Made by a program: the position numbers and the translations under genes
Shown here: positions 176-64,000 of the stretch, piece after piece
Layout: each line of letters opens with the position of its first letter
How positions within the stretch are numbered: the stretch's first letter is position 1
Notes under the pieces: model-generated
The model's input: the letters and a program-made list of their open reading frames with translations, nothing else
What the model was told of the DNA's origin: nothing
Database searches by the model: none
Assembly: GCF_963675165.1 (NCBI RefSeq)
Contig: NC_087383.1
Coordinates: 1,828,979 to 1,892,978 of the forward strand
DNA from: Halichondria panicea
Lineage: Eukaryota > Porifera > Demospongiae > Suberitida > Halichondriidae
DNA length: 64,000 nt
Reading direction: 5' to 3'

Positions 176-3100
176 ATGGCCGCTAAAGAGCAAAATCAAG
201 GTAATCTAAGTCCTTGAATGATTCAGTTAGATTAGTACACACAATTACACATGACACATGCCCTAGCTAGCTCGCTCGGGATCTAGATCTTGGTTCTACT
301 ATACTGACATCAGCACTAGATCTATACCTATATCATCTATGGTTCTACACCACTTTCACCTTTGGTAGTATAACATCTATTGTACGTATGACGTGCATAG
401 ACAGATATTAGAGTCCACTGACTCACTGCTGCAAAATTATTACTATTTTTAATAGTGAATTCCCTCAGAGCTCACAATTGATGATCTGAAGACAGAATTG
501 AAACTGACTGATGAGCAGCTCAATACCGCAATAAAGGAACCAGATCTACCCGAGTTAGCAGCATGTTTCGATAACACTGATGACTATCTTGAAAAGCTGG
601 AGCTATCACCTGGACAGAAAACTGACGTCAGCGAAGTGAAGGCTAAAACACGTCTAAATCGCACTCAAGCCGGAATGAAACTTGCCCTAGAATACTGGCA
701 GAACAAGAACCAACTACAAGCCACCTTCCAAGCTCTGCTACTCATCATACTCTCTCAGCTCAAAGGAGACGTTGCTGTTCAAGTGTGCAAGTATTTGTCT
801 GACAAATGTGAGTCTGTCATGTGAGAGTGTGGTCATTGTGGTACCATACGTTGTGGGAGTGATTGCAACCGAATAAGGTAATTGCTATTGTTACACATAC
901 AATTCTGTATTAACTATCACCAGGAATGGTACTCACTTATTGTTTTGTTTCCCCAGACTCCACCACCTCGTGTCCCCCCTCCCGAGAGAGGGTCTTGCTG
1001 AACCACAAGTTGTCCTCGTACAGGGACTACCTACAAAGTCGCTACAGAACACAAGTATCCACATCATCCACACAATGGCCTCCTGTTCCAACAAACAAAG
1101 TCTTCAAACTGGCCATGATTCAGAAGGAGAAAATACAGAGAGGAAGAATCGACGATGAATTTGTTAGGCTATCAATCACAGGAAAAATCGACGATATTTT
1201 ACTTCAAAAAACTCCGGTTAACTTGACAAACATTTTCTCTGAGATTGGGGATAGACGAAACTTTGTGTTGATTGAAGGAGCTCCCGGCTCTGGCAAGAGC
1301 ACCCTTGCTCTACACATCTGTCAGGAGTGGGCAAAGGGGAAACTGTTCCAAAAGTTCGATATTGCAATCCTCGTGAAACTGAGAGATCCACTTGTTAGAG
1401 AAGCGAAGACAATTGCTGACGTACTTCCCTGCATTGATACGGCCGTGGCTAACAAGACAGAGGCAGTTATAAAATCACTGTATGGCAAAGGTGTACTGTG
1501 GGTGCTAGACGGATGGGACGAGCTTCCTTTTGACCTCCCTAGAGACTCAATCATCAACAAACTAATCCGACCAGACATGTCACAAAAAGGAGCCCTACAC
1601 GAATCAGCTGTGATTGTAACATCTCGACCGTCATCTTCAGCTGAGCTCCACCCACTAGTCTCGTCCAGGGTGGAGGTGTTGGGGTTCACTCCACATCAAC
1701 TAGAACAGTATTTTACCGAGTGTCTGAATGGTGACTCACAAGCTGTGCAGACTCTACTGGAGAGAATTCGAGAGAACCCAGTGGTAGAAGGTAGCTGCTA
1801 CCTCCCCCTCAATGCTTCCATTGTCGTTAATTGCTTCCTTTCTGACAACCACTCCCTCCCAACATCCAACCACGGGATATTCACATCAGTGGTCCAGAGC
1901 TCTCTCAAGAGATACCTAAAGGAGAAGTTGAGGAAGACCACTCCAGTGGGAGACATCACATCCCCAGACTCACTGCCCTCGGAAATCAGAACACAGACCG
2001 TACAAATGTGTCAACTTGCATATCATGGGATCGAACAAAATAAAGTGACATTTACTGACAGTGATTTGGCCGCACTTCACATTACGAAGGAGATTTCAAA
2101 CGTTGGATTATTACAAACTGTTCCCAGCATCATTAGCGATGGTGATCTGGTTTACTACTGCTTTCTCCACCTGTCTATTCAAGAGCTACTAGCAGCAATC
2201 CACATCTCTCTCATGCCTCCCAAGCAACAAATTTCTGTATTCCAGAAGCTCTTCGGGAATCCTCGATTCAGTGCAGTCTTCCAGTTTTATGCTGGTATCA
2301 CCAAACTGAGTACTAGTAGACCAATCCTCAGCTTGCTACCTCGATTCTTGTGTCCAGTTCCAGCCACTGTTTTTGATCTGGTCAGAAAGGTTGTCAAAAA
2401 TGAGAAAGAGAAAGAGTATGGTGAGCCGAAGTCCCTTTTGTTGTCCCTCATCAATTGTTTGTACGAAGCTGAAGACTCGTCACTGTGTGTGTTTGTGGCT
2501 AATCTTCTTAATCACAATCTACATCTTGATAACACTGCAATGAATCCTATTGACTGCCTCTCTGTTGGATATTTCGCATCAGTTTGTTCCAACACCAGTA
2601 ATGGATTCACACTTAGTCTCAGAAGTTGCTCTATTAGTGACCAAGGCTGCAAATTTCTGGCCCGAGGACTTTCCAAGTGTCCCAACTCTAATAATGATAT
2701 TCCTACAGAAGGGATACACATCGCTGAGATTATCGAGAACACTAGTTCAATATCTAAATTGGTTTTGTCTAATAATGCCATTGGTAACAGTGGACTTGGC
2801 ACACTCTGTGCGGCCTTGTCCACTAACACATCATTAAAGAGCCTGGACCTGCAAAAGTGCTCACTAACAATATCAGACGACAATGGAGCTGCCCTCTATC
2901 AACTTCTGAATACAAACAATTCCCTCGAACATCTTAATTTGTCTGGTAACACAGTGACTAGCTGTCGTCACATTGCTGCTGGACTTGCAGTCAATAAGAC
3001 TTTGAGAAGATTGGACTTGGGTTTCTGTGAACTGACTGATCAGAGTATCGAGGAGCTATCAACTGGACTGATCAACAAGATTAAAACACTGTACATATGG

Positions 3101-3277
3101 GGTAATACCTCAATAACAGAAGATGGAATGAAGACGCTTGCCAGACATCTAACCACCCACTGCTCTGAACTGACACGATTGTTGATACCCGACCACCTAA
3201 GATTCTGTATCTGGACAGTATTCAGGGATGCTAACAAAGAGAGGAAGAGAAATGGACTACCCGAGATTTATGTGTGA
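176..3277 (+). CDS. NLR1: Death-NACHT-LRR receptor (NOD-like), complete
   Basis: Three coding exons: 176-200 (MAAKEQNQ plus one base), 469-807 and 957-3277, joined by GT-AG introns that are both phase 1. They give 894 residues. Exon 2 encodes a Death-like helical domain (about residues 9-120; LPELAACFD, YLEKLELSPGQ, ALEYWQNKN). Exon 3 encodes a NACHT module: Walker A GAPGSGKS at about 229-236, Walker B VLWVLDGWDEL at about 301-311, sensor VIVTSRP near 340, and a winged-helix type motif YCFLHLSIQELLAA near 520-535. Ribonuclease-inhibitor-type LRRs follow from about residue 670 (LVLSNNAIG, LDLQKCSL, LNLSGNTV, LDLGFCEL). This is the architecture of sponge NLRs, expected to be cytosolic pattern receptors that signal by Death-domain contacts. 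No signal peptide or membrane segment is seen. Ligand and partner are unknown. The internal ATG at 926 lies in intron 2 and is not used in this model. Confidence 0.9.
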
Positions 3278-3929
3278 TAATTGTTGTTTACCCGAGATTA
3301 ATTATGTTTATTAATTGATTGATTATTAATTGTGTATTCATTAGATTATTAATTTATAATTAATTGATTATTATTAATAATTAATGTTTAGTTATAATTA
3401 TATTATGATTATTGTTGTTATTAATTAATTAATAAATGTTAATTAATTTGTTGTGTTATGCATCTAATCTCTATCATTGGTCAATATAATTATAGCACAT
3501 GTACAGATGGTGACGAGTGAATTCAATGCTTCCTACTGACACGGAGAGCATGTCATGCACTAGCTGTATGTATGTAACTGAATACACTATTGTAATAATG
3601 CTATAATCTCCACCTAGCTAGCCTCCTTCACAGGCTTTCAAGAGAAGTGCGGCCTGGGCCGGGATCGAGGCTAATCTCGACATGATCTACTTTTGACAAT
3701 AATTATATTACTAGGGCAATTTACAAAACAGTTAGTGTACAGAAGACTAGAAATATGTCGGCACATTACATAACAATTACCTAAAAACAAATCAGTTGGA
3801 ATTGGTCAATATAGCACAGTAATAATGATGGTTTAAATTCTACAGTGTCACAGAGAGCACATGCACTGTACGTATAAAACTGTCAATGAATGTAGTGGAA
3901 ATCCAATTTAACGCTCTGTCGATTTTTGT
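3278..3929. other. NLR 3' flank with polyadenylation signal, shared by NLR1, NLR3 and NLR4
   Basis: AT-rich 3' region of TTAATTAAT-type runs. AATAAA at 3431-3436 is followed by a GT-rich stretch (TTTGTTGTGTTATG), a plausible polyA signal; the same signal occurs at 26800-26805 and 39695-39700 after NLR3 and NLR4. The remainder (to about 3900) is nearly identical in the three copies. It includes a repeat end, GGCCGGGATCGAGGCTAA near 3658, that resembles in reverse orientation the repeat at 20478-20520. No gene is seen. Confidence 0.65.
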
Positions 3930-6740: not shown

Positions 6741-8024
6741 CAGTGCATGTACATAGTGGGGACCATAGGCAGTGCATGTAAATAGTGGGGCCATAGGCAG
6801 TGCATGTACACAGTGGGACCATAGGCAGTGCACGTACACAGTGGGACCATAGGCAGTGCACGTACACAGTGGGACCATAGGCAGTGCACGTACACAGTGG
6901 GACCATAGGCAGTGCACGTACACAGTGGGAACATAGGCAGTGCATGTACACAGTGGGAACATAGGCAGTGCATGTACACAGTGGGGCCATAGGCAGTGCA
7001 TGTACACAGTGGGGCCATAGGCAGTGCATGTACACAGTGGGGCCATAGGCAGTGCATGTACACAGTGGGGCCATAGGCAGTGCATGTACATAGTGGGGCC
7101 ATAGGCAGTGCACGTACATAGTGGGACCATAGGCAGTCCATGTACATAGTGGGACCATAGGCAGTGCATGTACATAGTGGGACCATAAGCAGTGCATGTA
7201 CATAGTGGGACCATAGGCAGTGCATGTACATAGTGGGACCATAAGCAGTGCATGTACATAGTGGGACCATAGGCAGTGCATGTACATAGTGGGGCCATAG
7301 GCAGTGCATGTACACAGTGGGACCATAAGCAGTGCATGTACATAGTGGGGCCATAGGCAGTGCATGTACATAGTGGGACCATAGGCAGTGCATGTACATA
7401 GTGGGACCATAGGCAGTGCATGTACATAGAGGGACCATAGGCAGTGCATGTACATAGTGGGACCATAGGCAGTGCATGTACATAGTGGGACCATAGGCAG
7501 TGCATGTACATAGTGGGACCATAGGCAGTGCATGTACATAGTGGGACCATAAGCAGTGCATGTACATAGTGGGACCATAGGCAGTGCATGTACATAGTGG
7601 GACCATAGGCAGTGCATGTACATAGTGGGACCATAAGCAGTGCATGTACATAGTGGGACCATAGGCAGTGCATGTACATAGTGGGACCATAGGCAGTGCA
7701 TGTACATAGTGGGACCATAAGCAGTGCATGTACATAGTGGGACCATAGGCAGTGCATGTACATAGTGGGACCATAAGCAGTGCATGTACATAGTGGGACC
7801 ATAGGCAGTGCATGTACATAGTGGGACCATAGGCAGTGCATGTACATAGTGGGACCATAAGCAGTGCATGTACATAGTGGGACCATAGGCAGTGCATGTA
7901 CATAGTGGGACCATAGGCAGTGCATGTACATAGTGGGACCATAGGCAGTGCATGTACATAGTGGGATCATAGGCAGTGCATGTACATAGTGGGACCATAG
8001 GCAGTGCATGTACATAGTGGGACC
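6741..8024. repeat. 28-bp minisatellite array A (about 46 units)
   Basis: A tandem array whose + strand unit reads GGCAGTGCATGTACATAG followed by TGGGACCATA, 28 bp in total. The left end (6780-7080) is rich in TACACAG and CACGTAC variants and in GGGGCC; the centre and right end are more homogeneous, with scattered AAGC/AGGC alternation. Since 28 is not divisible by 3 and the unit lacks - strand stops, all three - strand frames stay open for more than 400 codons. These are reading-frame artefacts. The array lies between the two halves of CCX-1, probably in an intron. Confidence 0.95.
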
Positions 8025-8654
8025 TTTACAGGTCAAATAATTGTTGTAAATATTACAACAAAGGAGCATGCTATTAACTTGTCAATATTGATCAATGTTG
8101 ATATTGGATTGTGTGGTAGATTGTGAGAGCTTTGAAGTACTAGTTTTGCTGAGCTGCTTGACACTTGAAACTGGATTGGCTCTGGAAGCACTATTGACTT
8201 TGTACTCTTTTTTTTTTGCAGGTGATCTTAACTGCTTATTCTCCTGTTCAGCCATTGTCTGTTGGCTACTGCTTCCATCAACACCACCTTTAAAGATGCT
8301 AAGTTTAATATTACTTTCTCCAGACACAACTCATCTCTTGTGTGTCCTACTGTGTCCCTTTACCGGTCAAATTGAAGGTTTAGACCAGCTACAGCTTTTA
8401 AAGGCCACACATACTTCCATCGAGGCAAGCAGCAAGGCATAATCGACTGGTTAGTGTGTGTGTGTGTGACGTGAGTGTGCACAACCATTGTCCCACGCCC
8501 ATCTTCTAAGCTAGTCTGGCCACGCCCTCCCCAAAGAAGTCTTCATTGGGGGGCGGCGATCAAATCAAGCTAAGTTGGTGGGTTGGGCTGACCACAAATT
8601 CAAATTCAAACTAAAGTGATGACCCTTTTCCCGATTAAACGATTGACCGATAAA
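8025..8654. other. Spacer between minisatellite arrays A and B
   Basis: Non-repetitive DNA apart from a TG run (8455-8468). On the - strand, 8082-8327 gives an 81-residue Ser/Lys-rich open frame (MSGESNIKLSIFKGG start; second Met MAEQENKQLRSPAKKK). Its low-complexity, hydrophilic make-up is compatible with a small exon of the CCX intron region or with chance. No homologue is recognised, and I do not call it a gene. Confidence 0.35.
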
Positions 8655-9502
8655 TGCATGTACATAGTGGGACCATAGGCAGTGCATGTACGTAGTGGGA
8701 GCATAGGCAGTGCATGTACGTAGTGGGAGCATAGGCAGTGCATGTACGTAGTGGGACCATAGGCAGTGCATGTACATAGTGGGACCATAGGCAGTGCATG
8801 TACATAGTGGGACCATAGGCAGTGCATGTACATAGTGGGACCATAAGCAGTGCATGTAAATAGTGGGACCATAGGCAGTGCATGTACATAGTGGGACCAT
8901 AGTGGGACCATAAGCAGTGCGTGTACATAGTGGGACCATAGGCAGTGCGTGTACATGTGGGACCATAGGCAGTGCGTGTACATAGTTCCATAGGCAGTGC
9001 ATGTACATAGTGGGACCATAGGCAGTGCATGTACATAGTGGGACCATAAGCAGTGCATGTACATAGTGGGACCATAGGCAGTGCATGTACATAGTGGGAC
9101 CATAGGCAGTGCGTGTACATAGTGGGGCCATAAGCAGTGCATGTACATAGTGGGAACATAGGCAGTGCATGTACATAGTGGGACCATATAGGCAGTGCGT
9201 GTACACAGTGGGACCATAGGCAGTGCATGTACACAGTGGGACCATAAGCAGTGCATGTACATAGTGGGACCATATAGGCAGTGCGTGTACACAGTGGGAC
9301 CATAGGCAGTGCATGTACACAGTGGGACCATAAGCAGTGCACGTACATAGTGGGACCATAAGCAGTGCACGTACATAGTGGGACCATAAGCAGTGCACGT
9401 ACATAGTGGGACCATAAGCAGTGCACGTACATAGTGGGACCATAAGCAGTGCACGTACATAGTGGGACCATAGGCAGTGCATGTACATAGTGGGGCCATA
9501 AG
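8655..9502. repeat. 28-bp minisatellite array B (about 30 units)
   Basis: Same unit as array A, with more variants: GTGCGTGTAC, GTGCACGTAC, CATATAGGC insertions (9186, 9272) and partial units (8890-8912, 8978-8990). The right end (9340-9470) is a homogenised run of the GCACGTACATAG/AAGC variant. The flank 3' of the array (AAATGTTTTTTCAGG, then AACCCCCCCAAATGTTCAAC) is the same as the flank of array D at 54668, so the two arrays occupy homologous positions in duplicated segments. Confidence 0.95.
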
Positions 9503-10428
9503 CTCTGTACACACACTAGAGGTCAATTTGAGTACCTTTTCTACTTTGCTTAAAAAAATGTTTTTTCAGGTCTGCGCCCCGAACCCCCCCAAATGTTCAA
9601 CAGCGTACGGCCGTCGTCATTTCCCCCGTAGCTAAAATCCTGCTTGAAACCCTGACAATAGTGAGTATTTGTGACATACCGTATAAGTAGAGGTTGTATG
9701 GTGAAAATGTTCGTATATTTCGTACTGTAGAGCATCATACACTGTACGAAAAATAAAACTACAAAACTATTCTACAGCAATAGGCTCAACGTGGCTGTAT
9801 GAATATTTAAAATACGAAATATTTCCAGTCCTACAGTATTATAAACTCTTTAACCACAACTTTGGTAAACATAATATTATTTCTTACCTAAACTTCTTGA
9901 AGGCATGAGTGAGTGTTCGGATTCATTACTGACAGGGCATCATTCTCAGTCTCAACTCACATCAACCTCCAGCATGGGGTGGGTCGATCACAGTGACATA
10001 ACACACACAAACTGTGCAAAGATGATAAATCGGCATTACGGTAACTTAAACCAACAGATGATAAATGGACTAAAATCATGAAAACTCATGAAAACTCACT
10101 AATAATAACGAGTGTTGCAAACTGCGATGTGCTAATGCATGCCTCTCACTTATAGTTTCGATTAGGGGGGGAGGGGCTAAATGAGGCTCTTTATACTGCT
10201 AATCACAGGGGCCCCTCTTTCCGTATTCCCCCAAAACCTATAATCGCAGTCACGTGACCCCTAACCTCTAGCGTGAGAGATATGAATGGGCACGTACATG
10301 TAACATCTGCTTAACCGATACCTCGCGGATATGAGACAATAAATCTACTGCAACCTGTAAGACTAGTCTGATATACATGTACCACAGAAACAGTGTGCTT
10401 GTGTACATGCTAATTTAAAACTACTCAC
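9503..10428. other. Duplicated repeat-rich segment, matches 54669-55630
   Basis: No gene is seen. It contains the right end of a CAGGGTTTC-family element (CTTGAAACCCTG at 9643-9654) without its left end, and an AT-rich block near 9660-9860. A degenerate CCX exon (cf. FEAE exon) is at about 9895-9960. The stretch aligns over nearly its whole length with 54669-55630, which marks one border of the segmental duplication. Confidence 0.5.
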
Positions 10429-11971
10429 ATCTGCCTTGCTGTTGGCCAGTTCCAATTCTCACTCCAGCTTAGCCATGACACCCAGGTCCATGATTTGAGA
10501 CCTCTCGAGTAGCTTCTCCTCCAGCTCCCTCAGCAGGTCATCCTCTAGACATTGAATGGTCTCACTCTTCTCCTCAACCTGACAGGGGAACATCAATAAG
10601 TTGCTGCCAGGTGGAGAATACTCGACATACAACAGTGACGTGCATGTACACTCAACTACTGAATCTGGCAATGAAATTTAACGGTATTCTCCCACTTTGA
10701 AATAAAGGTCAGCTTAAACTTGGACTGTAGTAGCAAATAGTAGATCGATTTTGATTAAAGGCCAGTGAATATTCTAACCACTGCACATGTGTATCTCTCA
10801 CCTCTGTGGGTGGTGTAGGAACGAGGGAGGCCCTCTGATACTGTCTAGAGGACTGGACTTCTTCTCACTGCCAATCTAGGAGGTATGAAAACAAAATATG
10901 CATTTGGTAAAGATCTGCTCCCAAACAACATTGCAATTGATCCACATTTACAGGTAAAGGGTCATTAAAGTAAAATATGACATTTGAGCACAAACATTCC
11001 TCCTGTCACCTCCTGCTCATTCAGGAACTTCATGAACCTGGTAGGAGTGAAGTGCATCTTGAAGGACTCGTCACATGATCTTGGAGCAAAAGATACAGAC
11101 TTGGTTGAGGATTTGAGTGGGGCTAAAGTGAGAGAGGAGGTTGTGGGGGGAGGGGCCTCAGATCAGGACTGGTGGGACGTAGTGTCACGTGAAAGAAGAC
11201 TCGGACACATGGTCCTCCGTCTGGACAGCTGCTGTGAGGAGAATGAGAATTGTAAGGTACTGGAATTGAACTGTGCACAAGCACGAAATACATGTACTAT
11301 TTTATTCGCACCATGCACATAACTAACTAAAAATGCTCACCAATAAAACACCACACACCACTTGGTGTACAACATTTTAACGAATCTAAAAGTATACAAA
11401 TGAACATCTGCTCCTCTGCTCCTCTAGATAACCTGCCCAACCCTCCACATACACACTGGCTGGATCATGCATAAAGAAAATGGCATCTATTTTCACAGCG
11501 TTTGACCATCAAACGTATCAGAGAATAATCTCACGCCCATTATTGCTGATTTGCTTGAAATGCCCACCACCATCTTAGCAATGTACCAGCAAGGGGCTTT
11601 TGTTGTGAGCATCAATGGTAGGCCATGGCATTCAGTTGCTATTGATGAGTCACATGAAATGCAGGTACTCTCTGATAAGAAGATCTTAATTGGACTGTTT
11701 GTGTCTGAAATGGGAGGCTTACTACAACTTCATATCAGCTAAAGCCTACAAGGTGTTAGGGCCTTCTAAAAATATGATTTCCTCTACCAACTCAATCAAA
11801 ACTATATAAGAAACAATTTTACTTTTCCCTAGTGAGATCTCAGCTCTCTCAACTCTGGCGACCAATTACTGCTCAAATACATTCATTCTTAAAGTGATTG
11901 AGCTCACCTTTGGTAGCGCTGACTTATCACAGCTGTTGGTCCAGAACTCTGAGCTTCCCCTCGAGGTGCAA
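10429..11971 (-). pseudogene. CCX-1, 5' exons (decayed)
   Basis: Exon-like blocks on the - strand, from the 5' side: 11971-11900 (after acceptor CACTTGCAG; LHLEGKLRVL), a block ending at 11010 (SVSFAPRSCDESFKMHF, then TPTRFMKFLNEQE before GTGACA), a block near 10860-10803 (QYQRASLVPTPPTE before GTGAG), and 10578-10429 (VEEKSETIQCLEDDLLRELE, then EEKLLERSQIMD: strongly charged, heptad-like, coiled coil). In the last block this copy reads GAG TGA where the 44246-44407 copy reads through, and 11971-11900 lacks bases kept at 45735-45807. The copy is therefore probably non-functional. Family not recognised. Confidence 0.4.
11455..11742 (+). pseudogene. Decayed protein fragment, shared with 45290-45570
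   Basis: A + strand protein-like segment: FTAFDHQTYQRI, then MPTTILAMYQQGAFVVS and GRPWHSVAIDESHEM, ending HIS-stop at 11742. The frame breaks near 11520-11545. The copy at 45290-45570 reads through that spot but has a different frame break just upstream (CAGAGAGAATAA). WHSVAIDESHEM-like segments recall proteins encoded by repeated, probably mobile, gene families of invertebrate genomes, but I cannot name the family. Confidence 0.4.
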
Positions 11972-11989
11972 CTGCAAGTGACAGAAGAT

Positions 11990-12583
11990 TTAAGTTGAGG
12001 TTGAGAAAAGAGTTTCATGCAATAAAGTTAGAAGACACTGAATAAGCAGATTACCAGATAAAGTACAGCATAATTATGTTCCGGACAGGAAATTGTCCGG
12101 GTATAATTGGAACAGATTTTTATAGCGCATGCGAAGTGTCCGGGAATAATTAGCATGCAGCTGCATACGAGTGAGCTAAGTTTAATAGAACAGGGTACGA
12201 CTGAATAGTTGCACTATTATAGCTATCTAAAACTAGATACTCAAAGCTATCTAACTGCAGCACTCTAAGTATTACTGGCTGGTTATGACTGTAACTCAAC
12301 TTTTCAAGGTATTGTCCGGACAAATGTAATATTAAAGCACAAGAGTGTCCGTTGTATTAGAACAACGAAAATTGGCAGGCAAGAGTGTCAGGGATAATTA
12401 GAAGTTTCTGAGGCGATAAATTAGAAGATATACGGTACCTCAGAAACAGACATGCAAGTTCGTTGTCTAAGGACATAATTATTGCAGTGCTTATAACTAT
12501 GGCTAATACAAGGGTGCTCAGTTAAAGTCGACCATACATACTTGATCCATATTATACATGTACCCTGGGAGCAGTACAATAAG
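11990..12583. other. Spacer with repeated TGTCCGG motifs
   Basis: No gene is seen. The motif GTCCGG followed by ATAATT recurs (12097, 12138), with a short palindrome CCGGACA...TGTCCGG at 12081-12100 and related motifs at 12308, 12346 and 12388. It looks like ends of one or more degenerate small transposons. The same block is at about 45890-46310. Confidence 0.4.
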
Positions 12584-13484: not shown

Positions 13485-13534
13485 AAAAAGTGGGTGTATC
13501 TCAATCTTAGATATCTGAGATACACCCACTTTTT
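13485..13534. promoter_or_regulatory. Perfect 19-bp hairpin upstream of NLR2 (conserved at NLR3 and NLR5)
   Basis: Left arm 13485-13503 (AAAAAGTGGGTGTATCTCA) and right arm 13516-13534 are perfect reverse complements with a 12-nt loop. It lies 92-141 bp before the NLR2 start codon. The same hairpin is at 23610-23659 (NLR3) and 47310-47357 (NLR5) at similar distances. It may be a regulatory site or the footprint of a small foldback element fixed before the copies split. Confidence 0.5.
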
Positions 13535-13625
13535 TTGCAAGTCATGCAAAAACAACAACACTCAATAATATATTTCAGAGAAATCTAGAGCTAGCTAGCT
13601 GCAAGGCACAGATTTATTTACTGGA

Positions 13626-14576
13626 ATGGCCACTAAAGAGCAGAACCAAGGTATAAAGACTGTCATGTTTCCTATAAAGGATAAACCCAATGATTGCTAA
13701 AGCATAAAACCCTCATTGGTGATTGCTAACCTTGTGTGCTTGCTATCTATTTTCAGAGCTCACAATTGACGATCTGAAGACAGAAATGAAACTGACTGAT
13801 GAGCAGCTCAATACAGTAATAAAGGAACCAGATCTACCCGAGTTAGCAGCATGTTTCGACAATGTTCACAAAGGCTATCTTGAAAAATTGGAGCTCTCAC
13901 CTGGAGAGCAAACTGACGTGAGGACTAGAGCATATGTAGATGGCACTCTGGCAGAAATGTTGCTGTCTACTTAATTGCTATTGTTACACATACAATTCTC
14001 TATTAACTATCACCAGGAATGGTACTCACCTATTGTTTTGTTTCCCCAGACTCCACCACCTCGTGTCCTCCCTCCCGAGAGAGGGTCCTGCTGAACCACA
14101 AGCTGTCCTCGTACAGGGACTACCTACAAAGTCGCTACAGAATGCAAGTATCCACATCAGCCACACAATGGCCTCCCGTCCCAACAAAGACAATTTTCAA
14201 ACTAGCCATGATTCAGAAGGAGGAAATACAGAGAGGAAGAATCGACGATGAATTTGTTAGGCTAACAATTACGGGGAAAATTGACGATATTTTACTTCAA
14301 AAAACTCCGGTTAACTTAACTAACATTTTCCCTGAGATTGAGGATACACGAAACTTTGTGTTGATTGAAGGAGCTCCCGGCTCTGGCAAGAGCACCCTTG
14401 CTCTACACATCTGTCAGGAGTGGGCAAAGGGGAAACTGTTCCAACAGTTCGATATTGCAATCCTGGTGAGACTGAGAGATCCCCTCGTTAGAGAAGCAAA
14501 AACAATAGAAGATCTTCTCCCTTGTAGGAATTCAACACTGGCATGCCAAATAGGGGCAACAATTATAATTAATTGA
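13626..14576 (+). pseudogene. NLR2 pseudogene (Death exon deleted, truncated in NACHT)
   Basis: Exon 1 (13626-13650, MATKEQNQ) and the start of exon 2 (from 13757) are as in NLR3. In exon 2 the sequence jumps from ATGTTGCTG directly to TCTACTTAATTGC at about 13957-13970, which in NLR3 lies in intron 2. The second half of the Death domain and the exon-2 splice donor are thus deleted, and the frame ends at 13974. The NACHT exon (from 14050) is open through Walker A GAPGSGKS (about 14374-14397) and ends at 14576, before Walker B, after LLPCRNSTLACQIG. Everything downstream (rest of NACHT, all LRRs) is missing. No full receptor can be made. NLR5 at 47451 has the same two lesions. Confidence 0.85.
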
Positions 14577-23730: not shown

Positions 23731-26679
23731 ATGGCCACTAAAGAGCAGAACCAAGGTATAAAGACTGTCATGTTTCCTATAAAGGACAAACCCAATGATT
23801 GCTAAAGCATAAAACCCTCATTGGTGATTGCTAACCTTGTGTGCTTGCTATCTATTTTCAGAGCTCACTATTGACGATCTGAAGACAGAAATGAAACTGA
23901 CTGATGAGCAGCTCAATACAGCAATAAAGGAACCAGATCTACCCGAGTTAGCAGCATGTTTCGACAATGTTCACAAAGGCTATCTTGAAAAATTGGAGCT
24001 CTCACCTGGAGAGCAAACTGACGTGAGGACTAGAGCATATGTAGATGGCACTCTGGCAGGAATGTTGCTGGCTTTGAAATTCTGGATTCTGACCAACGAA
24101 CTAGACGCCACTTTCCAAGCTCTTTTACTCATCATACTCTCCCTGCTCAAAGAAGACGTTGCTGTTCGAGTGTGCAAGTACTTGTCTGACAAATGTGAGT
24201 CTGTCATGTGAGAGTGTGGTCATTGTGGTACCATACGTTGTGGGAGTGATTGCAACCAAATAAGGGACTCTTCAACTTAATTGCTATTATTACACATATT
24301 CTGTATTAACTATCACCAGGAATGGTACTCACCTATTGTTTTGTTTCCCCAGACTCCACCACCTCGTGTCCCCCCTCCCGAGAGAGGGTCCTGCTGAACC
24401 ACAAGCTGTCCTCGTACAGGGACTACCTACAAAGTTGCTACAGAATACAAGTATCCACGTCAGCCACACAATGGCCTCCTGTCTCAACAAAGAAAATTTT
24501 TAAACTGGCCATGATTCAGAAGGAGGAAATACAGAGAGGAAGAATCGATGATGAATTTGTTAAACTAACAATTACGGGGAAAATTGATGACATTTTACTT
24601 TTAAAGACTCCTGTTAACTTGACTAACATTTTCTCTGAGATTGGGGATAGACGAAACTTTGTGTTGATTGAAGGAGCTCCCGGCTGTGGCAAGAGCACCC
24701 TTGCTCTACACATTTGTCAGGAGTGGGCAAAGGGGAAACTGTTCCAAGAGTTCGATATTGCAATCCTCGTGAGACTGAGAGATCCACTTGTCAGAGAAGC
24801 AAAAACAATTTCTGACATACTTCCCTGCATCGATACGGCCGTTGCTAATGAGACAGAGGGAGTAATAAAATCACTGTATGGAAAAGGTGTACTGTGGGTG
24901 CTGGACGGATGGGACGAGCTTCCTTCTGACCTCCCTAGGGATTTAATCATCAACAAACTAATCCGACTAGACATGTCACAAAAAGGAGCCCTACACGAAT
25001 CAGCTGTGATTGTAACATCTCGACCGTCATCTTCGGCTGAGCTCCACCCACTAGTGTCGTCCAGGGTGGAGGTTTTGGGGTTCACTCCGCATCAACTAGA
25101 ACAGTATTTTACCGAGTGTCTGAATGGTGACTCACAAGCTGTGCAGACTCTACTGGAGAGAATTCGAGAGAACCCAGTGGTAGAAGGTAGCTGCTACCTC
25201 CCCCTCAATGCTTCCATTGTCGTTAATTGCTTCCTTTCTGATAACCACTCACTCCCCACATCCAACCACGGGATATTCACATCACTTGTCCAAAGCTCTC
25301 TCAAGAGATACCTCCAGGAGAAGTTGGGGAAAACCACTCCAGTGGGAGACATCACATCCCCAGACTCACTGCCCTCGGAAATCAGAACAGAGACCGTACA
25401 AATGTGTCAACTTGCATATCATGGGATTGAACAAAACAAAGCAACATTTACTGACGGTGATTTGGCCGCTCTTCGCATTCCGAAGGAGATTTCAAACGTT
25501 GGATTATTACAAACTGTTCCCAGTATCATTAGCAATGGTCATCTGGTTTACTACTGCTTTCTCCACTTGTCTATTCAAGAGCTACTAGCAGCAATCCACA
25601 TCACTCTCATGTCTCCCAAGCAACAAATTTCTGTATTCCAGAAGCTGTTTGGTAGTCCTCGATTCAGTGCAGTCTTCCAGTTTTATGCTGGCATCACCAA
25701 ACTGAGAACTAGTAGACCAATCCTCAGCTTGCTACCTCGATTCTTGTGTCCAGTTCCAGCCACTGTTTTTGATCTGGTTAGAAAGATTGTCAAAAAAAAA
25801 GAGAAGAAGTATAGGATCCTTTTGTTGTCCCTCATCAACTGTTTGTACGAAGCTGAAGACTCGCAACTGTGTGTGTTTGTGGCTAATCTTCTTAATCACA
25901 ATCTAGATCTTAATAACACTACAATGAATCCTATTGACTGCCTCTCTGTTGGATATTTCGTATCAGCTTGTTCCAACACCAGTAATGGATTTACACTTAA
26001 CCTCAGTAGTTGCTCTATTGGTGACCAAGGCTGCAAATTTCTGGCCCGAGGACTCTCCAAGTGTCCCAACTCTAATAATGATATTCCTACAGAAGGGATA
26101 CACCACTTTGCTGAGATTATCGATAACACTAGTTCAATATCTAACTTGGATTTGTCTAATAATGCCATTGGTAACAGTGGACTTAGCACACTCTGTGAGG
26201 CCTTGTCCACTAACATATCATTAAAGAGCCTGGACCTGCGCAAGTGCTCACTAACAATATCAGACGACAATGGAGCTGCCCTCTATCAACTTTTAAATAC
26301 AAACAATTCCCTCAAATATCTTAATTTGTCATGTAACACAGTGACTAGCTGTCGTCACATTGCTGCTGTACTTGCAGTCAATAAGACTCTGAGAAGATTG
26401 GACTTGTATTCCTGTGAACTGACTGATCAGAGTATCGAGGAGCTATCAACTGGACTGATCAACAAGATTGAAGAACTGCACATATGGTGTAATGACTCAA
26501 TAACAGAAGATGGAATGAAGACGCTTGCCAGACATCTAACCACCCACTGCTCTAAACTGACACGATTGTTCATACCCGACCACCTAAGATCCTGTATCAA
26601 GACAGTATTCAGGGACGCTAACAAAGAGAGGAAGAGAAATGGACTACCCGAGATTAATGTGTATGCATTTGATTATTAA
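23731..26679 (+). CDS. NLR3: Death-NACHT-LRR receptor, complete
   Basis: Exons 23731-23755, 23862-24194 and 24353-26679, both introns phase 1, give 894 residues. The Death domain (about 9-118) is of a second type (NVHKGYLEKLELSPGEQTDV, then LALKFWILTNELD), differing from NLR1, NLR4 and NLR6 in the central helices. The NACHT module has Walker A GAPGCGKS at about 227-234 (Cys in place of the usual Ser, still a valid P-loop), Walker B VLWVLDGWDEL at about 299-309, VIVTSRP and FLHLSIQELLAA. The linker before the LRRs is shorter (KKKEKKYRILLL). The LRRs show LNLSSCSIG, LDLSNNAIG, LDLRKCSL, LNLSCNTV and LDLYSCEL. The C-terminus extends to YAFDY. An AATAAA signal is at 26800. It presumably acts as a cytosolic receptor; no ligand is known. 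Confidence 0.9.
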
Positions 26680-36102: not shown

Positions 36103-39100
36103 ATGGCTGCTAAAGAACCAAATCAAGGTATTCTAAGTTAGATTCTAACACACATGACGCATGCCCTAGCAGAGCGAGGTACTCTCCAATATTATCCAGA
36201 TGCATGGTTAGGGGAGGTTTGAGCAAGAGCAGCTTGTCCATATTAGCAAACACAGGTGTGGGTGTCTGAGGGTCTGTACTAGCTAGCAGAACATAACCAC
36301 CACCATAATTGCCCTAGCTCGCTCGGGATCTGGATCTGGGTTCTACACTTTTGGTTGATAGCAATTATCATATGTACATACATACATAATTATTGATTAA
36401 TTTACAGCGCCACATCGGATAATTTTTGGGCCCTAAAAGAAGCGCCACCGTTGCTGTAATTATTCTTTTTCTGGCGCTCATAAAAAGGCTTGTTTGAGAC
36501 ATCAATTAAGACAATCATCCTGCATCTTTGACTTCCTTCACACTTTCAGCAGTTGTCTGACACATAGCTAATGTTGTTCACGAGTCAGCTCTCAACGGTG
36601 CAGCTAGAAACTGAACTAGACCATGCCCATTTTCTCTATACTAGCTGTAGAACATAAGCGCCACCATAATTTAGGCGCCAGCTGGGCTAAACGCAATTTG
36701 TTGTGTTTTGTGTTTTGTACTGCCACAACTACGGTAGTCCACTGACTCACTGATATAAAATCTATTTTTAATGGTGAATTCCCTCAGAGCTCACAATTGA
36801 TGATCTGAAGACAGAAATGAAACTGACTGATGAGCAGCTCAATACAGCAATAAAGGAACCAGATCTACCCGAGTTAGCAGCATGTTTCGATAACACTGAT
36901 GACTATCTTGAAAAGCTGGAGCTGTCACCTGGACAGAAAACGGACGTCAGCGAAGTGAAGGCTAAAACACGTCTAAACCGCACTCAAGCCGGAATGAAAC
37001 TTGCCCTAGAATACTGGAAGAACAAGAACCAACTACAAGCCACCTTTCAAGCTCTGCTACTCATCACACTCTCCCTGCTCAAAGGAGACGTTGCTGTTCA
37101 AGTGTGCAAGTACTTGTCTGACAAATGTGAGTCTGTCATGTGAGAGTGTGGTCATTGTGGTACCATACGTTGTGGGAGTGATTGCAACCAAATAAGGGAC
37201 TTTCAACTTAATTGCTATTGTTACACATACAATTCTCTATTAACTATCACCAGGAATGGTACTCACCTATTGTTTTGTTTCCCCAGACTCCACCACCTCG
37301 TGTCCCGCCTCCCGAGAGAGGGTCCTGCTGAACCACAAGCTGTCCTCGTACAGGGACTACCTACAAAGTCGCTACAGAGCACGAGTATCCACATTAGCCA
37401 CACAATGGCCTCCTGTCCCAACAAACAAAGTCTTCAAACTGGCCATGATTCAGAAGGAAAAAATACAGAGAGGAAGAATCGATGATGAATTTGTTAGACT
37501 ATCAATCTCAGGAAAAATTGATGATATTTTGCTTCAAAAAACTCCACTTGACTTGACTAACATTTTCTCTGAGATTGGAAATAGACAGAACTTTGTGTTG
37601 ATTGAAGGAGCTCCCGGCTCTGGCAAGAGCACCCTTGCTCTACACATCTGTCAGGAGTGGGCAAAGAGGAAACTGTTCCAAGAGTTCGATATTGCAATCC
37701 TTGTGAGACTGAGAGATCCCCTCGTTAGAGAAGCCATTACAATTTCTGACTTACTTCCCTGCACAAACAAAGCGATGGCTAATGAAACAGAGACTGTGAT
37801 TATGTCATTGTATGGCAAAGGTGTACTGTGGGTGCTAGACGGATGGGACGAACTTCCTTCTGACCTCCCTAGAGACTCAATCATCAACAAACTAGTTCGA
37901 CCAGACATGTCACGAGAAAGTCCGCTACACGAATCAGCTGTGATTGTAACATCTCGACCGTCATCTTCGGCTGAGCTCCACCCACTAGTATCGTCCAGGG
38001 TGGAGGTGTTGGGGTTCACACCACATAAACTAGAACAGTATTTCACCGAGTGTCTGAAAGGTGACTCACAAGCTGTGCAGACTCTACTGGAGAGAATTCG
38101 AGAGAACCCAGTGGTAGAAGGTAGCTGCTACCTCCCCCTCAATGCTTCCATTGTCGTTAATTGCTTCCTTTCTGACAACCACTCCCTCCCCACATCCAAC
38201 CACGGGATATTCACATCGGTTATCCAGAGCTCTCTCAAGAGATACCTCCAGGAGAAGTTGGGGAAGACCACTCCAGTGGGAAACATCACATCCCCAGACT
38301 CACTGCCCTCGGAAATCAGAACGCAGACCGTACAAATGTGTCAACTTGCATATCATGGGATCGAAAAAAACAAAGCGACATTTACTGACAGTGATTTGGC
38401 CGCTCTTCGCATTACGAAGGAAATTTCAAACGTTGGATTATTACAAACTGTTCCAAGTATCATTAGCGATGGTCATCTGGTTTACTACTGCTTTCTCCAC
38501 CTGTCTATTCAAGAGCTACTAGCAGCAATCTACATCTCTCTCATGTCTCCCAAGCAACAAATTTCTGTATTCCAGAAGCTGTTTGGTAGTCCTCGATTCA
38601 GTGCAGTCTTCCAGTTTTATGCTGGTATCACCAAACTAAGAACTAGTAGACCAATCCTCAGCTTGCTACCTCGATTCTTGTGTCCAGTTCCAGCCACTGT
38701 TTTTGATCTGGTCAGAAAGATTGTCAAAAATGAGATAAAGAAAGAGTATATTGAGCCGAAGCCCCTTTTGTTGTCCCTCATCAATTGTTTGTACGAAGCT
38801 GAAGACTCGCGACTGTGTGTGTTTGTGGCTAATCTTCTTAATCACAATCTAGATCTTCATTACACTACAATGAATCCTATTGACTGCCTCTCTGTTGGAT
38901 ATTTCGTATCAGCTTGTTCCAACACCAGTAATACATTCATGCTTAGCCTCCACAGTTGCTCTATTGGTGACCAAGGCTGCAAATTTCTGGCCCGAGGACT
39001 CTCCAAGTGTCCCAACTCTAATAATGATATTCCTACAGCAGGGATACACATCGCTGAGATTATCGAGAACACTAATTCAATATCTAAATTGGATTTGTCT

Positions 39101-39616
39101 GATAATACCATTGGTAACAATGGACTTTGCGAACTCTGTGCGGCCTTGTCCACTAACACATCATTAAAGAGCCTGAACCTGTACAATTGCTCACTAACAA
39201 TATCAGACGACAATGGAGCTGCCCTCTATCAACTTCTAAATACAAACAATTCCCTCGAATATCTTAATTTGTCTGGTAACACAGTGACTAGCTGTCGTCA
39301 CATTGCTGCTGGACTTGCAGTCAATAAGACTCTGAGAACATTGTACTTGTTTATCTGTGAACTGACTGATCAGTGTATCGAGGAGCTATCAACTGGACTG
39401 ATCAACAAGATTGAAACACTGCAAATATGGGGTAATGCCTCAATAACAGAAGATGGAATGAAGACGCTTGCCAGACATCTAACCACCCACTGCTCTGAAC
39501 TGACACTATTGTACATACCCGACCACCTAACATCCTGTATCGAGACAGTATTCAGGGACACTAACAAAGAGAGGAAGAGAAATGGACTACCCGAGATTAA
39601 TGTGTTAGATTATTAA
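36103..39616 (+). CDS. NLR4: Death-NACHT-LRR receptor, complete
   Basis: Exons 36103-36127 (MAAKEPNQ), 36788-37126 and 37287-39616, phase-1 introns, give 897 residues. The Death domain (about 9-120) is of the NLR1 type (NTDDYLEKLELSPGQKTD). The NACHT module has Walker A GAPGSGKS at about 229-236, Walker B VLWVLDGWDEL at about 301-311 and VIVTSRP, with the distinctive stretch SDLLPCTNKAMANE that NLR6 shares. LRR strands read LSLHSCSIG, LDLSDNTIG, LNLYNCSL, LNLSGNTV, LYLFICEL and LQIWGNAS. Intron 1 is unusually long (660 bp) and carries an EFR3 fragment (36166-36277). An AATAAA signal is at 39695. It presumably acts as a cytosolic immune receptor. It lies head-to-head with EFR3-1. Confidence 0.9.
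36166..36277 (-). pseudogene. EFR3 exon 1 fragment inside NLR4 intron 1
   Basis: AGAGCGAGGTACTCTCCAAT, TTTGAGCAAGAGCAGCTTGT and ACACAGGTGTGGGTGT match, with small gaps, EFR3-1 exon 1 at about 35685-35790. It lies in the same orientation as EFR3-1 but within NLR4. It is too short and gapped to code. Confidence 0.75.
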
Positions 39617-47450: not shown

Positions 47451-48400
47451 TGGCCACTAAAGAGCAGAACCAAGGTATAAAGACTGTCATGTTTCCTATA
47501 AAGGATAAACCCAATGATTGCTAAAGCATAAAACCCTCATTGGTGATTGCTAACCTTGTGTGCTTGCTATCTATTTTCAGAGCTCACAATTGACGATCTG
47601 AAGACAGAAATGAAACTGACTGATGAGCAGCTCAATACAGTAATATAGGAACCAGATCTACCCGAGTTAGCAGCATGTTTCGACAATGTTCACAAAGGCT
47701 ATCTTGAAAAATTGGAGCTCTCACCTGGAGAGCAAACTGACGTGAGGACTAGAGCATATGTAGATGGCACTCTGGCAGGAATGTTGCTGTCTACTTAATT
47801 GCTATTGTTACACATACAATTCTCTATTAACTATCACCAGGAATGGTACTCACCTATTGTTTTGTTTCCCCAGACTCCACCACCTCGTGTCCTCCCTCCC
47901 GAGAGAGGGTCCTGCTGAACCACAAGCTGTCCTCGTACAGGGACTACCTACAAAGTCGCTACAGAATGCAAGTATCCACATCAGCCACACAATGGCCTCC
48001 CGTCCCAACAAAGACAATTTTCAAACTAGCCATGATTCAGAAGGAGGAAATACAGAGAGGAAGAATCGACGATGAATTTGTTAGGCTAACAATTACGGGG
48101 AAAATTGACGATATTTTACTTCAAAAAACTCCGGTTAACTTAACTAACATTTTCCCTGAGATTGAGGATACACGAAACTTTGTGTTGATTGAAGGAGCTC
48201 CCGGCTCTGGCAAGAGCACCCTTGCTCTACACATCTGTCAGGAGTGGGCAAAGGGGAAACTGTTCCAACAGTTCGATATTGCAATCCTGGTGAGACTGAG
48301 AGATCCCCTCGTTAGAGAAGCAAAAACAATAGAAGATCTTCTCCCTTGTAGGAATTCAACACTGGCATGCCAAATAGGGGCAACAATTATAATTAGTTGA
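47451..48400 (+). pseudogene. NLR5 pseudogene (twin of NLR2, plus a stop codon)
   Basis: Exon 1 is at about 47451-47475 and exon 2 starts at 47581. A TAG at 47646-47648 (ATATAGGAA, where NLR2 and NLR3 read ATAAAGGAA) stops the Death domain. The GTTGCTG/TCTACTTAATT deletion junction is the same as in NLR2, so the exon-2 donor is also gone. The NACHT exon is open through Walker A GAPGSGKS (about 48198-48221) and ends at 48400 before Walker B. Downstream the copies diverge within about 30 bp. It cannot encode a receptor. Confidence 0.85.
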
Positions 48401-61184: not shown

Positions 61185-64000
61185 ATGGCCACTAAAGAGC
61201 AGAACCAAGGTATAAAGACTGTCATGTTTCCTATAAAGGATAAACCCAATGATTGCTAAAGCATAAAACTCTCATTGGTGATTGCTAACCTTGTGTGCTT
61301 GCTTATCTATTCTCAGAGCTCACAATTGACGATCTGAAGACAGAAATGAAACTGACTGATGAGCAGCTCAATACAGCAATAAAGGAACCAGATCTACCCG
61401 AGTTAGCAGCATGTTTCGATAACACTGATGATTATCTTGAAAAGCTGGAGCTGTCGCCTGGACAGAAAACTGACGTCAGCGAAGTGAAGGCTAAAACACG
61501 TCTAAACCGCACTCAAGCCGGAATAAAACTTGCCCTAGAATACTGGCAGAACAAGAACCAACTACAAGCCACCTTCCAAGCTCTGCTACTCATCATACTC
61601 TCCCTGCTCAAAGGAGACGTTGCTGTTCAAGTGTGCAAGTACTTGTCTGACAAATGTGAGTCTGTTATGTGAGAGTGTGGTCATTGTGGTACCATACGTT
61701 GTGGGAGTGATTGCAACCAAATAAGGGACTTTCAACTTAATTGCTATTGTTACACATACAATTCTCTATTTACTATCACCAGGAATGGTACTCACCTATT
61801 GTTTTGTTTCTCCAGACTCCACCACCTCGTGTCCCCACTCTCAAGAGAGGGTCCTGCTGAACCACAAGCTGTCCTCGTACAGGGACTACCTACAAAGTCG
61901 CTACAGAGAACCAGACTCCACATCAGCCACACAATGGCCTCCCGTCTCAACAAACAAAGTCTTTAAACTGGCCATGATTCAGAAAGAGAAAATACAGAGA
62001 GGAAAAATCGACGATGAATTTGTTAAACTAACAATCACAGGAAAAATTGACGATATTTTACTTAAAAAAACTCCGGTTAACTTGACGAACATTTTCTCTG
62101 AGATTGGAGATAGAAGACACTTTGTGTTGATTGAAGGAGCTCCCGGCTCTGGCAAGAGCACCCTTGCTCTACACATTTGTCAGGAGTGGGCAAAGGGGAA
62201 ACTGTTCCAAGAATTCGATATTGCAATCCTTGTCAGACTGAGAGATCCCCTCGTTAGAGAAGCCATTACAATTTCTGACTTACTTCCCTGCACAAACAAA
62301 GCGATGGCTAATGAAATAGAGACTGCAATTATGTCATTGTACGGCAAAGGTGTACTGTGGGTGCTGGACGGATGGGACGAACTTTCTTCTGACCTCCCTA
62401 GAGACTCAATCATCAACAAACTAATTCGACCAGGCACGTCACAAGAACGTCCGCTACACAAATCCACCATGATTATAACATCTCGACCATCATCTTCGGC
62501 TGAGCTCCACCCACTAGTCTCGTCCAGGGTGGAAGTGTTGGGGTTCAATCCACATGAACTAGAACAGTATTTCACTGAGTGTCTGAAAGGTGACTCACAA
62601 GCTGTGCAGACTCTACTGGAGAGAATTCGAGAGAACCCAGTGGTAGAAGGTAGCTGCTACCTCCCCCTCAATGCTTCCATTGTCGTTAATTGCTTCCTTT
62701 CTGACAACCACTCCCTCCCAACATCCAACCACGGGATATTCACATCAGTGGTCCAGAGCTCTCTCAAGAGATACCTCAAGGAGAAGTTGAGGAAGACCAC
62801 TCCAGTGGGAGACATCACATCCCCAGACTCACTGCCCTCGGAAATCAGAACACAGACCGTACAAATGTGTCAACTTGCATATCATGGGATCGAACAAAAT
62901 AAAGTGACATTTACTGACAGTGATTTGGCCGCACTTCACATTACGAAGGAGATTTCAAACGTTGGATTATTACAAACTGTTCCCAGCATCATTAGCGATG
63001 GTGATCTGGTTTACTACTGCTTTCTCCACCTGTCTATTCAAGAGCTACTAGCAGCAATCCACATCTCTCTCATGCCTCCCAAGCAACAAATTTCTGTATT
63101 CCAGAAGCTCTTCGGGAATCCTCGATTCAGTGCAGTCTTCCAGTTTTATGCTGGTATCACCAAACTGAGTACTAGTAGACCAATCCTCAGCTTGCTACCT
63201 CGATTCTTGTGTCCAGTTCCAGCCACTGTTTTTGATCTGGTCAGAAAGGTTGTCAAAAATGAGAAAGAGAAAAAGTATGGTGAGCCGAAGTCCCTTTTGT
63301 TGTCCCTCATCAATTGTTTGTACGAAGCTGAAGACTCGCAACTGTGTTTGTTTGTGGCTAATCTTCTTAATCACAATCTACATCTTTATCGCACTACAAT
63401 GAATCCTATCGACTGCCTCTCTGTTGGATATTTTGCATCAGTTTGTTCCAATAGCAGTAATGGATTCACACTTAGCCTCAGAAATTGCTCTATTGGTGAC
63501 CAAGGCTGCAAATTTCTGGCCCGAGGACTCTCCAAGTGTCCGAACTCTAATAATGATATTCCTACAGAAGGGATACACATCGCTGAGATTATCGAGAACA
63601 CTATTTCAATATCTGAATTGAATTTGTGTAATAATGCCATTGGCAACAGTGGACTTAGCACACTCTGTGAGGCCTTGTCAACTAACACATCATTAAAGAC
63701 ACTGAACCTGGCTAATTGCTCACTAACAATATCAGACGACAATGGAGCTGCCCTCTATCAACTTCTGAATACAAACAATTCCCTCGAATATCTTAGTTTG
63801 TCTCATAACACAGTGACTAGCTGTCGTCACATTGCTGCTGGACTTGCAGTTAATAAGACTCTGAGAACATTGAACTTGGGTAACTGTGAACTGACTGATC
63901 AGAGTATCGAGGAGCTATCAACTGGACTCATAAACAAGATTAAAGAACTGTTCATATGGGATAATGACTCAATAACAGAAGATGGAATGAAGACGCTTGC
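61185..64000 (+). CDS. NLR6: Death-NACHT-LRR receptor, 3' end beyond window
   Basis: Exons 61185-61209 (MATKEQNQ), 61317-61655 and 61816 to the window edge, open throughout (about 849 residues; about 45 missing). The Death domain is of the NLR1/NLR4 type although exon 1 and intron 1 are of the NLR2/NLR3/NLR5 type. The NACHT module has Walker A GAPGSGKS at about 229-236, Walker B VLWVLDGWDEL (followed by SSDLP), and IITSRP in place of VTSRP. The first NACHT half resembles NLR4 (SDLLPCTNKAMANE), while about 62700-63300 is almost identical to NLR1. LRR strands read LSLRNCSIG, LNLCNNAIG, LNLANCSL, LSLSHNTV, LNLGNCEL and LFIWDNDS. It is a mosaic gene, probably functional if the unseen end is intact. 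Confidence 0.88.

Follow-up and report, generated by a model that had tools for sequence, protein, structure and literature searches.

The stretch analysed here comprises 64,000 nucleotides of the sponge Halichondria panicea (contig NC_087383.1, here C7; the whole stretch, G000:C7:1828979-1892978, is referred to as the window, and the genome has 131 Mb in 39 contigs). It carries four members of a large gene family that encodes a NACHT domain followed by leucine-rich repeats (LRRs). In this family, amino acid changes at the variable positions of the LRR β-strands have been fixed ~7–8 times faster than synonymous changes in the same codons, and purifying selection acts on the NACHT part and, on average, on the LRR scaffold. 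The N-terminal and LRR parts of the genes have different histories, and modules have been exchanged between copies. We therefore favor, with a probability of roughly 0.85, the reading that this young and clustered family of at least 57 copies is a germline repertoire that arose as genes were duplicated, modules were exchanged, and selection strongly diversified the concave face of the LRRs.

The window contains four open NACHT-LRR exons, all on the + strand. For copy 1, a three-exon model is predicted, which joins in frame into an open protein of 894 aa. The exons are as follows:

176..200, + strand: predicted coding exon 1 of copy 1 (MAAKEQNQ), from the in-frame three-exon model with GT/AG splice sites
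469..807, + strand: predicted exon 2 of copy 1, candidate for a Death domain (Pfam Death E = 0.086, below the cut-off); its frame is open and continues into exon 3
957..3277, + strand: exon 3 of copy 1 with NACHT, a winged-helix/HD2-like part and LRRs, within the open reading frame 914–3277 (NACHT E = 3.9e-19, LRR_6 E = 1.9e-11)
24310..26679, + strand: NACHT-LRR exon of copy 2 (L013), 89.8% identical to copy 1 in tblastn, with Pfam NACHT and LRR_6
37244..39616, + strand: NACHT-LRR exon of copy 3 (L023), 89.1% identical to copy 1 in tblastn, with Pfam NACHT and LRR_6
61773..64000, + strand: NACHT-LRR exon of copy 4 (L008), cut by the window end, its remainder being present in the genome beyond; 90.7% identical to copy 1 in tblastn over residues 1–742

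Pfam NACHT (69.5–77.2 bits; cut-off 26.7) and LRR_6 (24.8–48.2 bits; cut-off 23.4) are found in all four copies, and the reading frame stops shortly after the LRRs. By the combination of a NACHT domain with C-terminal LRRs, the genes would be classified as animal NLRs.

A protein search of the same genome located at least 57 places of the gene; one is on C1, and the other 56 are spread over C7 from 1.80 to 4.19 Mb. This number is a lower bound, as 57 of 333 first-look candidates were scored and a further full LRR match is present at C7:3934484. The matched stretch is free of stops in 56 of the 57 copies (L042 has one in-frame TGA). It lies in one piece at 47 places and in two pieces at the other 10 owing to extra LRR sequence; these ten copies (L048–L057) contain approximately two more repeats, so the number of repeats also varies. 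Two pairs of copies are nearly identical: L033/L034 (C7:2140124 and 2340019) share an identical coding sequence, and L016/L017 (C7:2600121 and 2899822) have one mismatch in 5,349 aligned nt. The members of these pairs sit 200–300 kb apart and are either very recent duplications or assembly duplicates.

The variable positions (x) were preset by the repeat motif as offsets −1, +1, +3, and +4 from the first leucine of LxL, which gives 32 codons in eight repeats (first leucines at residues 536, 567, 616, 644, 674, 700, 726, and 756 of copy 1). The list was fixed when the entropy table was already known; it follows the LRR motif, and variability played no role in adding or dropping a position. Entropy was calculated for all 57 copies (756 of 764 alignment columns kept) and codon-letter tables for 56 (the start of L054 was not located). 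Pairwise counts used 54 copies (without L034, L017, and L057); maximum-likelihood, linkage, profile, and pair-list analyses used 53 (also without L042), and run counts used 52 (also without L054). The duplicates left out belong to pairs with 0 x differences that would otherwise have joined the counts. In the list below, the predicted strand is given in the numbering of the structural model, and significant codons are those at which the nonsynonymous rate exceeds the synonymous rate (β > α) with P < 0.001:

2516..2533, + strand: LRR strand 1, residues 535–540; x 535, 537, 539, 540; model strand 518–520 (residues 535–537); 537, 539, 540 significant
2609..2626, + strand: LRR strand 2, residues 566–571; x 566, 568, 570, 571; model strand 548–551 (residues 565–568); 568, 570, 571 significant
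2756..2773, + strand: LRR strand 3, residues 615–620; x 615, 617, 619, 620; model strand 596–600 (residues 613–617); 615, 617, 620 significant
2840..2857, + strand: LRR strand 4, residues 643–648; x 643, 645, 647, 648; model strand 626–628; all four significant
2930..2947, + strand: LRR strand 5, residues 673–678; x 673, 675, 677, 678; model strand 656–658; 673, 675, 678 significant
3008..3025, + strand: LRR strand 6, residues 699–704; x 699, 701, 703, 704; model strand 682–684; ω of x codons on the tree of this block 21.4; all four significant
3086..3103, + strand: LRR strand 7, residues 725–730; x 725, 727, 729, 730; model strand 708–710; block ω of x codons 8.6; all four significant
3176..3193, + strand: LRR strand 8, residues 755–760; x 755, 757, 759, 760; model strand 738–740; block ω of x codons 14.9; 755, 757, 760 significant

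Variation is concentrated at these positions. The mean column entropy is 1.96 bits at x, compared with 0.22 bits in the other LRR columns (Mann–Whitney P = 2.7e-19) and 0.25 bits in the upstream N-terminal part (N part). The 15 most variable of the 756 columns are all x (0.6 expected by their share), headed by residue 647 with 3.16 bits; residue 678 reaches 3.03 bits. When the comb of x positions was shifted by −13 to +14 residues, the true register gave the peak both in entropy (1.96; next 1.20) and in the proportion of nonsynonymous differences, pN (0.373; next 0.226). The ratio of pN to the synonymous proportion, pS, is less specific for the register (2.95 in register, 2.94 at +2, 2.44 at +3, and 3.12 at +5), because the shifted combs share some x sites and have a lower pS. 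The x profiles are distinct in all 53 copies compared after the removal of duplicates, and two copies differ at a median of 20 of the 32 x residues (range 1–29). Asn, Ser, Asp, Tyr, Arg, and Trp are enriched at x relative to the other LRR codons. A sequence-only reading of the window, centered on 2590–3215 (all LRR strands of copy 1 except strand 1, which lies upstream), had already placed the replacements among the four copies on the x positions of LxLxx[C/N]. All 16 motif strings it quoted (four motifs in four copies) are present, and the concentration holds, with pN/pS in the window copies reaching 2.75 at x as against 0.70 for the remaining LRR codons and 0.32 for NACHT. Its description of the residues between the strands as invariant was slightly too strong: they are mostly kept, with SLTISDDNGAALYQL found in 48 and TVTSCRHIAA in 53 of the 57 copies.

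Tree-free counts across the family gave a pN/pS of 2.95 at x (bootstrap 2.01–4.77), compared with 0.58 for LRR codons outside x and 0.36 for the N part; within x codons, diversity is 0.41 at the first and 0.38 at the second base. Partitioned MG94 codon models were fitted on four trees, which were based on the full gene, on its LRRs, on NACHT, and on the LRR codons outside x. The ratio of nonsynonymous to synonymous rates (dN/dS, ω) at x was 7.07, 7.90, 8.07, and 8.37 on the respective trees, with twice the log-likelihood difference (2ΔlnL) to a model with ω = 1 of 261–299. On the same trees, ω was 0.76–0.79 in the other LRR codons and 0.40–0.41 in the N part, and the nonsynonymous rate at x was 10.9–14.0 times as high as the synonymous rate in LRR codons outside x. 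When each repeat was given its own tree, ω at x was 4.6–21.4 in all eight blocks (2ΔlnL 41–166 against β = α at x). At single sites, 27 of the 32 x codons reach P < 0.001 whichever of three trees is used, and 535, 566, 619, 677, and 759 show no significant excess; 14–16 of the 220 other LRR sites, including 706, 732, and 763, pass as well. The sequence-only reading had proposed selection for diversity at x on a fixed scaffold, to be given up if dN/dS at x did not exceed that of the remaining LRR or if synonymous sites varied in the same way. The excess in dN/dS is about ten-fold on all four trees, and four-fold degenerate diversity (0.089 at x, compared with 0.057 in LRR codons outside x and 0.113 in NACHT) lacks the pattern, so the proposal is supported. 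A separate feature of the N part is a block inside NACHT (window 1406–1477, residues 165–188 of copy 1) with a pS of 0.52 and a pN/pS of 0.46, a very high synonymous difference suggestive of the retention or import of old sequence classes.

The position of the variable residues was further analyzed in an AlphaFold2 model built on the alignment of the 53 copies. In the model, each of the eight LRR strands spans offsets −1 to +1 of its motif, so that these two x offsets are predicted to lie inside the β-strand in eight of eight repeats. The predicted local distance difference test (pLDDT) score is 79–93 from strand 4 on and 66–85 around strands 1–3, with good local confidence at strand 1 and middling confidence at strand 2 (blocks of 66 and 82) and strand 3 (66). 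The N part of the model has low confidence (mean pLDDT of the whole model, 55.2) and was not used. In structure comparisons, the LRR part resembled ribonuclease inhibitor (4per: Z 23.6, root-mean-square deviation (rmsd) 4.4, 271 residues aligned; 1dfj: Z 22.1, rmsd 2.8, 252 aligned) and the LRRs of NLRP1 (4im6: Z 19.3, rmsd 2.3, 185 aligned); the whole model aligned with NOD2 (5irn: Z 23.8, rmsd 16.7, 400 aligned). The LRR sequence likewise matches ribonuclease inhibitor best (E 8.5e-20). The concave face of such LRRs is lined by strand residues, and the x residues of the sponge proteins would thus form a concave ligand face.

Exchange between copies is not visible from the single window and emerged from the genome-wide paralogues. 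LRR codons placed on the NACHT tree lose ~2,580 log-likelihood units (summed lnL −11039 vs −8459 on their own tree). The 53 copies include 21 pairs with at most 8 differences in the 1512 nt of the N part, and the LRRs of these pairs still differ at 6–29 of 660 non-x nt and 9–24 of 32 x codons. Flanks were compared in 11 of them. Eight have a 5′ flank with >99% identity, together with a 3′ flank that is short, far more diverged, or could not be located; L010/L021 and L007/L018 carry different LRRs between two flanks that are each ≥98.5% alike; and in L020/L025, the 3′ flank is more alike than the 5′ flank. Linkage between LRR non-x sites drops to an r2 of 0.048 within 31–60 nt (0.198 in the N part at equal distance). 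The x sites are near linkage equilibrium already at 3–9 nt (r2 0.032, chance 0.019, vs 0.231 for LRR non-x sites), which is expected if they change repeatedly. Because the N-terminal and LRR modules have different histories, modules or tracts must have moved between copies, and the conflict points to ectopic exchange. Part of the extreme x ratio in close pairs probably comes from such exchange and not from a burst of substitution. In block 640–710, 32 pairs have none of 177 scaffold positions different and differ on average at 7.9 of 12 x codons (12.7 of 36 x nt); in block 560–625, x differences grow from 2.0 to 6.4 of 24 nt as the scaffolds diverge. The longest runs of x residues shared between copies are only slightly above those in shuffled data, with no clear donor. 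When the LRR stretch was used as a DNA query (40 of 84 candidates scored), no stand-alone array of LRR cassettes appeared among the 41 matches listed. These include one full place outside the 57 (C7:3934484-3934784) and one partial fragment. The latter lies directly behind a complete copy (C7:2833805-2833934, in L005) and is perhaps a scar of unequal exchange. The 3′ flanks of copies 1 and 3 in the window (3341–3700 and 39605–39964) are 99.4% identical and the gene stretch is 92.5% identical, another sign of exchange.

Several observations weigh against our interpretation or limit it. On the side of domain content, matches to NLRC4_HD2 (22.9–28.5 bits; cut-off 33.1) and NOD2_WH (19.4–22.2 bits; cut-off 23.1) are at the expected place and below the cut-offs, and in the N-terminal exon, examined in copy 1 alone, the Death match is weak (13.4 bits vs 22.6). 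The scaffold is unevenly constrained: block values of ω for non-x codons range from 0.29 to 1.74, and no constraint is seen in the last block. Recombination breaks the assumption of a single tree, so the per-site values are rough. Depending on the tree, 11, 26, and 12 sites of the N part passed the per-site test, the 26 being found on the LRR non-x tree and many of them in block 165–188; a Bayesian per-site score that flagged 31–58 N-part sites was set aside. Near-identical pairs that were left out of the 21 (L033/L034; L016/L017 with 1 non-x and 0 x differences; L056/L057 with 4 and 0), together with L053/L054 (9 LRR non-x and only 2 x differences), indicate that very recent duplicates have no burst at x. 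In the 21 pairs, the LRR non-x differences involve alleles common to other copies in 337 of 451 cases (75%), little more than the 65% in all pairs. Lastly, elevation is mild or absent in two other NACHT-LRR groups, a hand-picked subset of the NACHT match list of the genome. In 14 copies on contig C13, ω at x is 1.69 (2ΔlnL 9.7) vs 0.66 in the rest, fitted on 28 x codons after one doubtful motif was removed by hand; in the 10 copies of the right cluster on C14, it is 0.67 (2ΔlnL 1.5) vs 0.59. Simple counts gave an x pN/pS of 1.00 (0.78–1.24; 32 codons) for C13 and 0.73 (0.27–1.94; 16 codons) for C14, and a recognizable LxLxx[NC] motif was looked for and not found in the left cluster of C14 (8 copies). 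The C13 and C14 groups are older (pS 0.17–0.43), so saturation may hide the effect, or the strong regime may be special to the C7 family.

The codon pattern at x raises the question of mutation versus selection. At many x codons, the first two bases take three or four letters and the third is nearly fixed (residue 703 is NNT and residue 704 NNC in 55 of 56 copies), as if a targeted mutagenesis, by a diversity-generating retroelement (DGR), a deaminase, or another hypermutation system, hit the x codons and selection played a lesser part. The x differences between identical scaffolds in block 640–710 and the near absence of linkage at x point in the same direction, as does a third-base diversity below 95% of simulations at 5–7 of the 32 x sites (it is above 95% at 1–5). 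Against this, the synonymous rate at x is just 1.5–1.7 times that of the other LRR codons and, by block, higher in three and lower in five of eight, and the four-fold diversity at x falls between the values for the other LRR codons and the N part. The mean third-base diversity at x (0.162) falls inside the ranges simulated under selection only (0.147–0.221 and 0.158–0.251); with the modest synonymous excess, hypermutation is not needed. In DGR targets, adenine-specific change also hits the third base of a variable codon that ends in A. At residue 725, bases 1 and 2 vary (the second is mostly C) and the third is A in 56 of 56 copies, which speaks against adenine-specific mutagenesis. The tracking of scaffold differences by x differences in block 560–625 and the absent burst in recent duplicates also disagree with hypermutation, and we consider it improbable; the pattern at first resembles adenine-directed mutagenesis of AAY codons, and a DGR-like origin was rejected on the synonymous rates, the third-base simulation, and residue 725. 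Relaxed constraint, in which solvent-exposed x residues drift freely, fits their predicted surface location between conserved leucines; drift, however, predicts ω ≤ 1, far below the values on all four trees, and pN at x is several times the difference in intron regions (mean 0.078, median 0.052) and the four-fold diversity (0.057–0.113), which makes this explanation extremely improbable.

An artefact of recombination between paralogues or of assembly (haplotigs or duplicated pieces of contigs) could be suspected from the strong conflict between NACHT and LRR trees and from the two near-identical pairs, which might be assembly duplicates. However, the rate fits include only one member of each such pair, ω or pN/pS at x is well above 1 also with block-wise trees and in tree-free pairwise counts, and an assembly error would hardly pick bases 1 and 2 of x codons; we regard an artefact as very improbable. 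A different matter is whether selection, though real, acts on self/non-self (allo)recognition or against cross-pairing of paralogues and not on the sensing of microbes. The sequence names no ligand, the distinct x profiles of the 53 copies would suit such a role, and fungal NLRs with diversified repeat faces have been tied to non-self recognition (PMC4986451). None of our tests favors allorecognition or cross-pairing over microbial recognition, and the size of the family and the NLR architecture are those usual for microbial sensing, so this alternative is unlikely, though worth keeping in view.

A germline repertoire shaped by diversifying selection could operate as follows. Duplication would supply receptor copies, ectopic exchange would recombine N-terminal and LRR modules, and diversifying selection would renew the concave face on a largely conserved scaffold, so that exchange followed by selection for new surfaces may keep yielding new specificities. 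Each copy could bind a different ligand or ligand variant; binding would drive oligomerization through NACHT and signaling through the N-terminal domain, presumably in an immune role. Each copy thus probably senses something different, with the rest of the protein much alike. A more far-reaching view, which we put forward tentatively and at somewhat less than even odds, is that of an anticipatory, antibody-like germline repertoire on an NLR scaffold, in which the concave LRR face would evolve at no less than 10 times the synonymous rate of the scaffold, with fine-scale gene conversion, and each individual would carry a private set of intracellular specificities. Animals without antibodies must separate many microbes (or neighbors) using germline genes, and this family offers a clear and testable example of an animal NLR that seems to discriminate through its LRR face, as plant resistance genes do. 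Against the highly conserved scaffold, the variable residues can be picked out codon by codon, and the 57 natural variants, which differ most at ~30 residues, are a ready panel for questions on LRR binding in animal NLRs.

Other elements of the window include two truncated N-terminal modules, each at the end of one of two ~4.2-kb stretches (10423–14587 and 44252–48411) that are 98.2% identical:

14007..14576, + strand: truncated N-terminal module without LRRs, matching residues 1–179 only of copy 1
47831..48400, + strand: truncated N-terminal module without LRRs, matching residues 1–186 only of copy 1

Arrays of a 28-base unit (CAGTGCATGTACATAGTGGGACCATAGG) lie between the NLR copies (6741–9500, 51946–52648, and 54003–54669). 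On their minus strand, several reading frames run without a stop for as many as 456 residues, apparently a by-product of the repeat and not a gene; the minus strand of a G-rich tandem array of ~40-base units at 57623–58330 is likewise open.

Highly variable NLRs (hvNLRs) have been defined by at least 10 alignment positions above 1.5 bits (PMC8226289). In the sponge family, 42 of the 756 columns exceed this value, 24 of them x, counted on paralogues. Similar to plant hvNLRs (Arabidopsis RPP13, RPP1, and RPP8), it has an NLR architecture in which entropy peaks at the strand positions of the LRRs and the scaffold is conserved. For RPP8, amino acid diversity has been described to peak at LRR X sites, with gene conversion between paralogues (PMC6771003), so both the X-site excess and the exchange have a counterpart there. 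In plants, however, the variation is across alleles of individuals, whereas here it is among paralogues of one animal genome, in which the NTPase family matched is NACHT and the LRRs match ribonuclease inhibitor. The zebrafish NLR-B30.2 family is, likewise, a very large clustered NACHT family of an animal, with nearly 400 proteins, gene conversion, and positive selection; that selection is in B30.2, the LRRs being described as 'not particularly variable' (PMC4852459), whereas in the sponge the LRR face is the hot spot. The sponge reading frame also differs in ending shortly after the LRRs. Among sponges, the AqNLRs of Amphimedon are reportedly a large NACHT-LRR expansion. Polymorphism of AqNLRs is mentioned in a citing sentence of a later paper (PMC6899969). 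A large expansion, partly with Death or CARD domains, is also described for Dysidea avara, in a report whose main text does not contain the word 'selection' (PMC12909245). In fungal NLRs with WD, ANK, or TPR repeats (Podospora HNWD), few positions per conserved repeat are diversified and family members exchange sequence (PMC4986451), as in the sponge family, which has LRRs instead. Among the titles and abstract openings listed in searches of the open literature, which leave out most subscription papers, the main Amphimedon NLR papers included, and hence carry little weight as evidence of novelty, there was no dN/dS study of the NLR LRR face in non-vertebrate animals, including sponges. Outside the NLRs, the variable lymphocyte receptors of lampreys carry their diversity at the x positions of LRR strands, are assembled somatically from LRR cassettes, and have no NACHT domain. 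The sponge family shares with them the diversity at strand x positions and differs in consisting of germline NACHT-LRR genes, with NACHT in all four copies of the window.

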